Below are positions 8,701 through 51,377 of a DNA stretch of 64,000 nucleotides, one piece after another. Origin of the DNA: Rhabdophis nuchalis (lineage: Eukaryota; Chordata; Lepidosauria; Squamata; Natricidae); the NCBI GenBank assembly GCA_039707465.1, contig CM077644.1, positions 141,546,462-141,610,461 on the forward strand, read 5' to 3'. Made by a program: the position numbers and the translations under genes. Under the pieces are notes generated by a model. The model did not search any database. It was not told where the DNA came from and was given only the letters and a program-made list of their open reading frames with translations. The first letter of the stretch is position 1, and the number at the start of each line of letters is the position of its first letter.

Positions 8701-8901
8701 CAGCAGCAGCAGCTAAAAGGATCAAGCAGTCAGCCTGGATGGCTGTATTGTTAGAAGAAATGTAAAGCTTTGGTAAATTGGTACCAAGATCTCAGCTGCA
8801 GAAAACGAGTTCAAACACAGGCTGTGTTTAATATATGGTTTGCTCCAGGAAAGGCTTTGCCTTCACTTAGTTATATGTCTGTTACTTTTCAGAGTGATTC
8901 C

Positions 8902-10533
8902 ATGGCAAATCAATCAAGACGATCTACAAAGCTCTCTCCACGCTGTTCTTTCCTGACCTCAAAGGATGAGGCACAGGCCCCTGACGTTTCTGCTTCATCT
9001 TATCACCCTACAAGACAAACTCACGCAAAGCCATTGAATGTGTCCCGATGCCGTCGCTCAGAATCCTTTGTCGCGCCAGATTCAATCGTAGTGACTCTGC
9101 TCCAGGCCTTGGCCCAGACAGGAGTCCCACTTTCGGAGGCAGAGCTCTTTGAGGCTCTTGTGCGGCAGGCAGGCGCTAGGCGCCCACTCCCCTCCCTTGC
9201 ACAGCTCTATCGTAGCTTCCTTCCTGCCCTGAGACGACAGCATGAATCGGCTCTTTGTCACAGCCTTCGGCATCAGGATGCCTTTGTCTTCCTTCACGAG
9301 GCTACCACAGACGACGGACGGATGGCCCTTGGCCTCTCCCTTTTGCCGCTTAATAGACTTGGGCAATCTCCACTGCTTCTTGGGATTGAGATCCTGGAAC
9401 AGTTGAGCCGTCCCTTAGTGGCTCGTACTGTAGCCCGTATGCTGAGTGAAGGGCATGTTTTGTTCCACCAGGTACTGGCTGTGGTCACTTCAGGGGGTGT
9501 GCCTATGATCCAGGCCTTCGCTGCAAATGGGATTTTAGGTGCGGTGTTGCCAGCTGCCCTTCATGTTCCTTGCTTGTACCATCAGTTGGAGTTGGTGATG
9601 GAGCTATGGCAAGATAAGTTAGAAAGGCTGGTTTCACTGCAGAATCTTCTGGAAGAGACGTTTGGACGGCGTCCAACTCTCCGTCACCATTATGCACTAT
9701 TCCTGAAAGAGCATGAACTGAAGCTGTCCCTCCCCGTGTGCAATAGGCAGGCTGGCCCTGAGGTTTGGTTGGAGAAAGCAATAGGCATTGCAGACCATCT
9801 CCCAGTTCTGAGGGAATTTGTAGCAATTGATGAAGTCGAGGGACCCATTATGGCAAAATTGCAGAGTATCCTAGAGGAGAATGACAAGGAACTTGTGGCA
9901 GAAGCCACTTTTATAGCTGAGCATGCCCAAGGTCTGCTGGCCACGGCACGGCTTCTCCACCAGACAGGTGAGCCCCTGGCCCACAGAATCTATGGAGAAC
10001 TAGATTCCTTGCGAGTTTCTTTCTCCTATCACTTGGATGCAAGACTGGGGCCCAACACAGAACAGCATCTGACTCTGTGCCCACCTCAGTGGGCACAACA
10101 GTTTCGCGACATCTTAGCTCAGAGCCTGAGTCACCTGGAGCACTTGTTTGACTCCCATCCTGCGATGCCCATCTACAAAGCAGTGCGGGCACTTGATCCC
10201 AAGCAACTGGGGGCTGTAGGATGGAGCCAGATAGAGCAAGAGCAGGGGATCCCTGGCCTATTGGGGGTGCCAGAAATGGAATGGTTTCGGTATCAACGTT
10301 TGGCTGAAGCAGCTCCTGCTGACATCTCCCTGGCTCAGTGGTGGGAGGCACAAGCTGAGCAGCTTCCTGTGCTGAGTCCACTGGCCCGGCGATACCTCTG
10401 GCTGCCTGTCTGTTCTCCCAAGTCTCCCTTCCTCCCAGGAGGTTTCTTCAACCTACCAGTGGCTGAGGATGGCTTTACACAGGAAGGTGCACGTCTCTTA
10501 TGCATGCTTAGGTATAACCGCAAGCTCCTTTAA
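8902..10533 (+). CDS. hAT transposase-derived protein (candidate domesticated gene), 543 aa
   Basis: An intronless ORF of 543 codons that I cannot assign to a named gene. Residues 62-113 resemble the helical region of CGGBP1-type hAT proteins (VTLLQALAQTGVPLSEAELF ... LYRSFLPAL). Residues 131-150 fit the first RNase H strand, 194-230 the second strand with the hAT CLYH (C-x-x-H) motif at 224-227, 431-436 the DPKQL motif, and 480-543 the C-terminal dimerisation region (WWEAQ ... LSPLARRYLWLP ... MLRYN). The positions expected for the three catalytic acids appear changed: H132 in LHEATTDDG, S197 in VVTSGG, and SPKSPF in place of the S-E-R motif. I see no N-terminal BED finger. The start at 8902 is chosen because TTACTTTTCAG just before it could be a splice acceptor; an in-frame ATG at 8875 is the alternative. 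AATAAA lies at 10684. Transposase ancestry is well supported, host function is inference. Confidence 0.8.
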   Translation: MANQSRRSTKLSPRCSFLTSKDEAQAPDVSASSYHPTRQTHAKPLNVSRCRRSESFVAPDSIVVTLLQALAQTGVPLSEAELFEALVRQAGARRPLPSLAQLYRSFLPALRRQHESALCHSLRHQDAFVFLHEATTDDGRMALGLSLLPLNRLGQSPLLLGIEILEQLSRPLVARTVARMLSEGHVLFHQVLAVVTSGGVPMIQAFAANGILGAVLPAALHVPCLYHQLELVMELWQDKLERLVSLQNLLEETFGRRPTLRHHYALFLKEHELKLSLPVCNRQAGPEVWLEKAIGIADHLPVLREFVAIDEVEGPIMAKLQSILEENDKELVAEATFIAEHAQGLLATARLLHQTGEPLAHRIYGELDSLRVSFSYHLDARLGPNTEQHLTLCPPQWAQQFRDILAQSLSHLEHLFDSHPAMPIYKAVRALDPKQLGAVGWSQIEQEQGIPGLLGVPEMEWFRYQRLAEAAPADISLAQWWEAQAEQLPVLSPLARRYLWLPVCSPKSPFLPGGFFNLPVAEDGFTQEGARLLCMLRYNRKLL

Positions 10534-10683: not shown

Positions 10684-10689
10684 AATAAA
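10684..10689 (+). promoter_or_regulatory. Possible polyadenylation signal of the hAT-derived gene
   Basis: AATAAA lies 151 bp after the stop codon, in an A-rich stretch. It is plausible as the mRNA 3' end, but AT-rich DNA makes chance matches common. Confidence 0.4.
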
Positions 10690-11812: not shown

Positions 11813-11920
<108 letters not shown>

Positions 11921-11975
11921 TGCTGGCATTGCTTGCTTCGGGTATTTTCCCGTGTATAAGGCATGGAAATGTTAT

Positions 11976-12047
11976 TGCAACGTTTCGACAAGATCTCATT
12001 TGTCATCATCAGGCTTTGGACAAGTGAGATCTTGTCGAAACGTTGCA
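11976..12047 (-). ncRNA. Hammerhead-ribozyme-like motif in an inverted repeat
   Basis: Read on the minus strand, 12012-11980 gives CTGATGA, then a helix GACAA/TTGTC closed by an 8-nt loop, then GAAAC and GT. This matches the hammerhead core CUGAUGA - helix II - GAAA. After GAAA comes ACGTT, so helix III would be the self-complementary ACGU, as in small dimer-forming hammerheads associated with Penelope-like elements. A 23-bp perfect inverted copy lies at 12025-12047 on the plus strand, but its CUGAUGA half is not intact. Cleavage activity is untested. Placing it in a Penelope-like remnant is inference, because no reverse transcriptase is visible beside it. Confidence 0.55.
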
Positions 12048-12467
12048 AACGAGACCGCATCCTACCTCATACATCCCTGCAGCCGATTCGCTCCCACAGA
12101 GAGGGACTTCTCCGGGTGCCGTCCACCAGGCAATGCCAGCGGGCGACGCCCAGGGGAAGGGCCTTCTCTGTGGTGGGCCCAACCCTCTGGAACGACCTAC
12201 CCCCCCCCCCCCCGACCTCAGAACAACCACGGACCTCCGCACCTTCCGCCAGAAATTAAAGACACTTTTGTTCCATCAGGCCGGTTTGGCCTAAGTTATT
12301 TACCTAGCCTTCAGTCTGTATTATAAATTGTTTTAATTGGGTTTTTAAATGGATTATGTTTTAACTGTCTAAATTTTAGCACAGGGATAACCTATTTAAT
12401 TCGATTTTAATTATTTATATTTTGTACTGTTTGTTTTAACTTCCTGTGCACCGCCCCGGGTCCCATA
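12048..12467 (+). mobile_element. CR1/L3-type LINE 3' fragment
   Basis: It encodes in broken frame the end of a CR1 ORF2 (the CGRAFSVVGPTLWNDL-type block) followed by the typical 3' end (CCTGTGCACCGCCCCGGGTC). The same segment ends the intact copy at 36049-39102. It begins abruptly against the inverted repeat at 12047. A C run (12201-12213) shifts the frame. Confidence 0.85.
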
Positions 12468-13081: not shown

Positions 13082-13518
13082 TATGGTGTTCTGACCCAGT
13101 CTAAGCAGAAACAAGAAACAGACTGTCACGAAAACTCCCTTTATTTACCTCTTACAATTAATTAATTACAATCAATTAATTGTATTCAGTCACTGAAAAG
13201 TCCAGGCAATAGTCCTTTAACAGACCTTATCTGTTGCAAATTAAGTTCTGGCAAGCACGAAACACAATGAGCAAAATCTTCAGAAATATGAACTGTTGTC
13301 TCCTAGGACAGTGGTGGGCAAACTCATTAGTCAATAGAGCCAAATATCAATAATACCACGATTGAAATTTCTTTTGAGAGCCGGAAGGTGTGGTCTGTTT
13401 TGTGGGAGTGGCTCAGTAGTCATGTGACTGGGTGGGCGTGGCCAACTTGGAAAATGTGAAACTCATTTAACAATGGTCTTGGTTAGCAACCAAACTTTTA
13501 GGCTCAATTGTGGTCATA

Positions 13519-14241
13519 AATTCTTTCTTTCTTTCTCTTTCTTTCTCTCTTTCTCTCTTTCTCCATTTCTCTCTCTCTCTTTGTCTCTTTCTTTCTGTCT
13601 CTCTTTCTGTCTCTCTCTCTTTCTTTCCCTCTTTCTCTCTCTTTCTCTTTCTTTCCCTTTTTCTTTCTCTCTCTCCATTTCTCTCTCTCTCCATTTCTCT
13701 CTCTCTCTTTCTGCCTCTATTTCTCTCTCTTTCTTTCTTTCTCTCTCTCTCTTTCCCTCTTTCTCTCTCTCTCTTTCTCTTTCTTTCTTTCCCTTTCTCT
13801 TTCTCTTTCTCTCTTTCTCTTTCTCCCTCTCTTTCTCTCTCTTTCTTTCCCTCTTTCTCTCTCTCTCTCTCTTTCTCCATTTCTCTCTCTTTCTCTCTCT
13901 CTTTCTTTCCCTCTTTCTCTCTCTTTCTCTTTCTCTCTTTCTCTCTCTCTCTTTCTCCATTTCTCTCTCTTTTTCTCTCTCTTTCTCTTTCTTTTTCTTT
14001 CCTTCTTTCTCTCTCTTTCCCTCTTTCTTTCTCTTTCTCTCTTTTTCTTTCTTTCCCTCTTTCTCTTTCTCTCTCTCTTTCTCCATTTCTCTGTCTTTCT
14101 CTCTTTCTCTCTCTCTCTTTCTCTCTTTCTCCATTTCTCTCTTTCTCTTTCTTTCCCTCTTTCTCTCTCTTTCTCTCTCTCTTTCTTTCCCTTTCTCTCT
14201 CTTTCTCTCTCTCTCTTTCTTTCCCTCTCTCTCTCTCTCCA

Positions 14242-14284
<43 letters not shown>

Positions 14285-14520
14285 CCTTCTTTCTCTTTCT
14301 CTCTTTCCCTCTCTTTCTTTCTCTCTCTATCTGCTTCGTCTGCCCATCTCTGTCACTCTGTGTGTGTGTGTCTGTCTGTCTCGCATTCAAGCACTTAATC
14401 ACTCATTCTGTGTCTCTATCTTTCTCTCCCTCCCTCTCTCTCTCTGTCTCTCTGTGTGTGTCTGTCACTCTCTGATTCCCCCCTCCCTCCTTGTCTCTCT
14501 CTGTGTCTGTGCCTCGCTCT
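13519..14520. repeat. About 1 kb polypyrimidine (CTTT/CT) tract
   Basis: The plus strand is almost purely C and T from 13519 to about 14330 and mostly so to 14520. It creates long false open frames: Ser/Phe/Leu-rich on the plus strand and Arg/Glu/Lys-rich on the minus strand, up to 413 codons. These are not genes. Mirror-symmetric homopurine-homopyrimidine DNA of this length can form triplex (H-DNA). Confidence 0.95.

Positions 14521-17896: not shown

Positions 17897-51377
<33,481 letters not shown>

Follow-up and report, generated by a model that had tools for sequence, protein, structure and literature searches.

The stretch analysed here (the window) consists of 64,000 nucleotides from the snake Rhabdophis nuchalis, positions 141,546,462 to 141,610,461 of contig CM077644.1 in assembly GCA_039707465.1. 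On its forward strand, at 8902-10533, there is an open reading frame (ORF) of 543 amino acids plus a stop, P0001, which very likely represents a hAT transposase that was taken over as a gene of the host. The frame is unbroken in translation, as had been claimed in a preliminary description of this DNA, and the chance of 543 stop-free codons is about 3e-10 given the base composition of the ORF itself. The gene is located 7.4 kb upstream of exon 1 of IGFBP7, which is found at 17897 on the same strand and is identified by its IGFBP and Kazal domains and by a PDB match to IGFBP7 at E 7.5e-36.

An alternative in-frame ATG at 8875 would give 552 residues, with the nearest in-frame stop 5' of the ATG at 8752. 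This possible N-terminal extension (8875-8901, forward strand) overlaps a splice-acceptor-like sequence, TTACTTTTCAG, with its 3' end at 8892; judged by eye, the candidate acceptor (ATATGTCTGTTACTTTTCAG) spans 8873-8892 on the same strand. If splicing occurs there, 8875-8901 is probably intron apart from its last 9 bases, which would begin the coding exon. The homologue from Thamnophis (P0002) has a different N-terminus and joins the window protein at S-E-S-M, the same point as the acceptor. Because the two coincide, a spliced 5' exon upstream of 8892 is plausible. A search of roughly 25 kb of upstream sequence on the same strand, in 9-residue windows with at least 5 identities, found no 5' coding exon resembling the P0002 N-terminus. 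At the other end, a candidate polyadenylation signal, AATAAA, is located at 10684-10689 (forward strand), 151 bases 3' of the stop codon.

The protein carries the regions of a hAT transposase in order, all encoded on the forward strand. Residues 1-54 (8902-9063) form a poorly conserved region that is rich in serine and basic residues, has a low predicted local distance difference test (pLDDT) score and contains no BED-like finger. Residues 55-115 (9064-9246) are helical, and within them residues 79-113 match the hAT N-terminal domain: when aligned to a hAT profile, 0 of 100 column shuffles were as good for residues 56-250, and 2 of 100 for residues 56-460. A helical insertion domain is present at residues 221-441 (9562-10224), where the structural alignment matches residues 264-458 of Hermes, the housefly hAT transposase. 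Residues 455-543 (10264-10530) form the C-terminal dimerisation region. Against a profile of five hAT proteins this region scores 38.7, compared with 23.7 for shuffles, and no column shuffle in 100 was as good, so the earlier claim of such a region holds. Against Hermes alone the score is 27.4, while the best of 200 shuffles reaches 26.9. As the alignments of both terminal regions to the hAT profile beat the shuffles, the case for descent from the hAT superfamily is strengthened, and we regard this descent as shown.

Further, two short motifs had been pointed out before. The CxxH motif is present at C224-x-x-H227 (9571-9582) and aligns with C265-x-x-H268 of Hermes; C224 is invariant in all 17 aligned sequences, i.e. 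the window protein and its 16 homologues, while H227 is retained in 14 of them and replaced by Q or R in three. DPKQL is also present, but it starts at D432 and not at 431.

A hidden Markov model search for the hAT dimerisation domain, which had been proposed in the preliminary description, gives a match that stays below the curated cut-off: P0001 reaches 16.4 bits with Pfam PF05699, where 21.4 is required. Matches to this family at E<=10 were obtained for 13 of the 17 sequences, the best at E 0.0078, and are under the cut-off in all those displayed. Another Pfam family, PAS_4, matches nine of the 17 sequences, also under its cut-off, with a best E-value of 0.0012 that is better than the best for hAT. 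The six of these with displayed positions place it at about residues 117-180, i.e. at the presumed core strands. We regard the PAS match as probably due to chance, since it stays under the cut-off and nothing else in the data suggests a PAS domain.

In the structure models the putative RNase H-like core has a pLDDT under 50. No match was found in the PDB by sequence search, neither with the single protein nor with the profile, and with Foldseek by itself the first structure model had no match at E<0.2; the structural match to Hermes was obtained only in a second look with VIA-align, where the identity is 10-12% (PDB 4d1q, 8sjd, 6dwz and 2bw3). A global hhalign comparison of the protein profile with Hermes gave no alignment. 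When hhalign was restricted to parts of the protein and to Hermes alone, 143 of 200 shuffles scored as well for residues 60-240, 5 of 200 for residues 115-222, where the register is nonsensical, and 2 of 200 for residues 115-240. The register on which we rely, that of CxxH and D248, is common to two alignments with Hermes alone and to the hAT-profile alignment.

We take D180, D248 and E572 to be the catalytic residues of Hermes; the letters at these positions were confirmed in the sequence. The place of D180 is occupied by H132 (9295-9297), in a local register judged by eye (LHEAT/IDLWT), and histidine is found in all 16 sequences that cover the position. S197 (9490-9492) takes the place of D248 in two of three alignments and in the hAT profile, and across the sequences this position holds S, L, V or P. 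For E572 there are two candidate places between P509 and G513 (10426-10440), neither of them acidic in the window protein. The alignment to Hermes alone gives P509, which is invariant (17/17), while the five-protein profile gives position 513, which is G in 16 sequences and E in P0010; at the adjacent position 514, D or E occurs in six of the 17. The D, D, E set of an active hAT transposase is thus not found in the window protein. The earlier statement that all three acids are replaced stands for H132 and S197 and for a non-acidic third place in this protein, but the third place is ambiguous and, if it lies at 513, is E in P0010. Judged by these residues, the protein very probably cannot cut DNA.

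Next, we studied the distribution of the gene. Searches with the protein gave 16 homologues, with 60-89% identity over 67-100% of the query. Thirteen have organism names and all of these are squamates, while three are without a name. The snakes are Thamnophis elegans, Pseudonaja textilis, Python bivittatus and Erythrolamprus reginae; the lizards and geckos include Pogona vitticeps, Anolis carolinensis, a Varanus, Tiliqua scincoides, Paroedura picta and Gekko kuhli, and there are further homologues from Rhineura floridana, Podarcis muralis and P. lilfordi. Gene identifiers of homologues are LOC116505460 (Thamnophis), LOC112542808 (Python), LOC103279824 (Anolis), LOC114588023 (Podarcis), LOC133388781 (Rhineura) and LOC143841330 (Paroedura). 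In the databases 10 of the 13 are called "uncharacterized protein", and for the P. lilfordi entry one source gives the name HAT C-terminal dimerisation domain-containing. The Varanus entry (P0008) is labelled as a bacterial sugar transferase in NCBI, evidently a mislabel. A profile search with all 17 sequences returned the same 16 homologues at E<=0.1. Neither the single-protein search nor the profile search retrieved a hAT protein or a named non-squamate among the 7998 candidates sharing most words, to which scoring was limited, so remote relatives may have escaped. In these searches, homologues of the sequence appear in squamates only.

In the tree, which is unrooted and in which we assigned the three unnamed sequences to a snake, a skink and an iguanian, the snakes, lacertoids, geckos and skinks each form one clade at 100/100, and geckos plus skinks are separated from the remaining sequences at 100/99. 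The window species is placed within the snakes, next to Thamnophis. Iguania do not form one clade (2 changes are needed; they are a single clade in 36% of the bootstrap trees), and support for the deepest forks is low, at 77/87. The gene tree is compatible with the squamate species tree, in which geckos branch first. In addition, all seven gecko, skink and lacertoid sequences share an insertion of one codon that none of the nine others covering the position has, i.e. snakes, iguanians and the monitor, which belong to Toxicofera. The insertion is a second sign of vertical descent besides the tree. The geckos split off from the remaining squamates some 190-200 million years ago, and by these divergence times the gene would be older than that split.

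Selection was judged by protein-level proxies: neutral evolution of the window ORF was simulated, with 20 runs for each of seven of the 16 homologues. At equal protein divergence, 3-18 stop codons are expected per comparison under neutrality; the absence of stops is a biased measure, since databases favour open frames. The replacement spectrum, the scarcity of indels and the uneven conservation are not subject to the same bias. Observed replacements have a mean BLOSUM62 score of -0.04 to -0.20, compared with -0.55 to -0.66 under neutrality (standard deviation 0.06-0.12), and the fraction of conservative replacements is 0.32-0.40 against 0.25-0.29. For Thamnophis, Python, Anolis and Podarcis the excess in this fraction is at most about two standard deviations in one or both settings. 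Internal indels are nearly absent across 488 residues, and conservation varies from 0.5 to 0.87 along the protein (12 of the 17 sequences). By these proxies the gene is under purifying selection, as far as can be read from the sequences.

In its own genome (1.92 Gb in 348 contigs) a search with the protein gave one match, a count that is a lower bound. Between 6900 and 12500 there are 19 short inverted pairs, some of which flank the ORF. When inverted ends together with 8-bp duplications around the ORF were looked for, a single match was found, which is not beyond chance (shuffled mean 0.57, maximum 2). This agrees with the earlier remark that no hAT ends are evident. The preliminary description had also named many dispersed copies with terminal repeats as a finding that would refute its reading, and the outcome speaks against a transposon.

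These results bear on two explanations in which the ORF is still a transposon. The first, that it is a dead or decaying copy whose frame is open by chance, would explain why the catalytic acids are gone, but not the single genome match, the homologues across Squamata, the near lack of internal indels, the conservative replacements and the lack of terminal repeats beyond chance, and we regard it as very improbable. The second, a hAT element that is still mobile or was recently transferred horizontally, shares with our reading the hAT descent. However, the first two catalytic positions are non-acidic in all sequences covering them, terminal repeats are not beyond chance, the genome gave one match and the gene tree is compatible with the species tree, which together leave this explanation close to negligible.

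The proposal that the ORF is an exapted host gene is supported: it has homologues across Squamata, one match in its genome, protein-level signs of purifying selection, lost catalytic acids and no end repeats beyond chance. The 16 homologues span a deep clade in a tree compatible with the species, while the count of one match applies to the genome of the window species. Some observations weaken single points of this reading. One profile alignment shifts the register of H132 and D180 by one residue, which weakens the D180 assignment, and the adjoining E133 is also invariant, which leaves the first catalytic position slightly open. The two alignments disagree on the third position, making it less certain. 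Against constraint, a stretch of the P. lilfordi protein is apparently frame-shifted locally relative to P. muralis, with an 8-residue gap, and the Varanus and Erythrolamprus models are short at the N-terminus, which may all be gene-model errors. Taken as a whole, we think it likely that this is a catalytically dead hAT-derived host gene that is conserved across Squamata.

The domestication probably happened once: a hAT transposase would have been captured as a host gene before the radiation of living squamates, with vertical inheritance afterwards. Zinc-finger recognition and, very probably, catalysis are lost. The core sequence and the insertion domain are still there, as are the helical domain at the N-terminus and the dimerisation region at the C-terminus. 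It is with the N-terminal, insertion and C-terminal parts that hAT transposases fold and associate. Because the last of these is kept, the protein may fold and self-associate like a hAT transposase without cutting. A role in the nucleus and binding to DNA are suggested by the hAT ancestry. By this analogy the protein would act as a non-catalytic scaffold or regulator that binds DNA or chromatin, a mechanism that we put forward tentatively.

It should be considered that the dead transposase fold might instead serve as a scaffold for other proteins and not bind DNA, in the way that EPM2AIP1 is a hAT-derived host protein known through its protein partners. In agreement with this, a BED-like finger is found in none of the sequences, the C-terminal region and the core at about 181-240 are among the best conserved parts while the N-terminal 60 residues are the least conserved, and W480-W481 and E460-Y464 (EWFRY) are invariant. 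However, residues 79-113 retain the hAT N-terminal domain, which has a DNA-binding role, and we find a pure protein scaffold somewhat unlikely.

The genome also contains an abundant hAT family: all 150 scored matches to PF05699 are above the Pfam cut-off, most of them at 56-58 bits, and frame lengths recur (167 and 366 amino acids), as in a young family. In addition, four longer frames with hAT domains (L004, L005, L007 and L009) look like separate hAT-derived genes. The longest frames of the 30 hAT-domain loci L004-L033 were compared with A1; L004 and L005 gave P 0.0017-0.0018 and the others P 0.016 or worse, and several of these others are not the hAT frame. As the search of the genome with P0001 found none of its copies, the abundant family is, by sequence comparison, no close relative of the window protein.

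A host-kept repressor, which would bind the ends of hAT elements or form mixed dimers with their transposases and so block transposition, would fit a protein that has lost its catalytic acids but kept its dimerisation region, in a genome with an apparently young hAT family. However, the genome search with the protein found no such element, the compared frames of the abundant family gave no significant match to A1, and the original target would have to persist as long as the gene. We therefore find a repressor quite unlikely.

Compared with Hermes, the window protein has H132 for D180, S197 for D248 and P509 or G513 for E572, and its gene has neither a BED finger nor terminal repeats beyond chance. 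No C-x2-C...H pattern was found in the first 140 residues of the 17 sequences, and BED is not among the Pfam matches; four of these sequences are short at the N-terminus (P0004, P0008, P0011 and P0013), and a finger might lie on a 5' exon outside the coding part that was scanned. The N-terminal region had been described as like that of CGGBP1. Residues 51-109 do align colinearly with human CGGBP1 in its second half (P 0.018), and shuffles did as well in 2 of 300 cases. This weak match is not specific, and a general hAT N-terminal domain explains it better. CGGBPs are, like our gene, host genes tamed from hAT, and carry a BED finger together with a Hermes DNA-binding domain (Yellan et al. 2021, PMC8097297); the words lizard, snake, squamat and Anolis do not occur in the main text of that paper. 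In contrast, the window protein has no BED in the scan and retains nearly the whole transposase body. CGGBP1 as a special relative was dropped, and we do not class the gene as a CGGBP, since general hAT proteins match this stretch too and CGGBPs carry BED plus this half.

Vertebrate genes of the ZBED and EPM2AIP1 type keep a near full-length hAT body as a host gene. By their general description, ZBED proteins have a hAT body like that of the window protein but retain BED fingers. L004, L005, L007 and L009 follow the order of the window protein, with the hAT N-terminal domain first, then the core and then the C-terminal region, and are probably ZBED-type genes; they are distant, since none was retrieved by the P0001 query and single comparisons gave P 0.0017-0.13. 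The ZBED family is treated in PMC10027918.

Elsewhere in the window, a long LINE (long interspersed nuclear element) ORF2 of 1017 amino acids is open at 36049-39102 on the reverse strand, with endonuclease and reverse transcriptase domains, and is apparently a fairly recent insertion. LINE-related fragments that by eye have peptide stretches in common are found at 31157-31831 (reverse), 40922-41710 (forward) and about 12050-12300 (forward). Two coiled-coil ORFs on the forward strand, at 23407-23877 and 25213-26061, are by eye similar to L1-type ORF1; the second has no Pfam match above cut-off. At about 11815-12048 a GATA microsatellite is followed by a 30-base inverted repeat of 97% identity (11975-12004 and 12019-12048), which adjoins a LINE-like stretch and has no evident relation to the hAT-derived gene. 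Finally, a long CT-rich tract of low complexity at 13473-14300 is open on both strands, giving mechanical ORFs of 413 and 242 amino acids.

Domesticated hAT genes are already known as a class, with several in vertebrates. In the literature searched no paper on this gene was recognised by its title or the start of its abstract, and six LOC identifiers occur in none of the searched papers. A bolder proposal, which we consider unlikely, is that the gene lost its catalytic acids and its BED finger before living squamates diverged and now serves in squamates alone, as a regulator in the nucleus or in defence of the genome, in a role on which snakes and lizards depend, with the conserved core reused without catalysis around the invariant H132-E133. 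What the finding adds to the hAT-derived host genes is a gene that seems to have originated early in Squamata and that is mostly an "uncharacterized protein" in databases. Every sequence sampled has lost the acids at the first two catalytic positions and retains the core, which makes the gene a clean case for asking what a transposase fold does when it can no longer cut.
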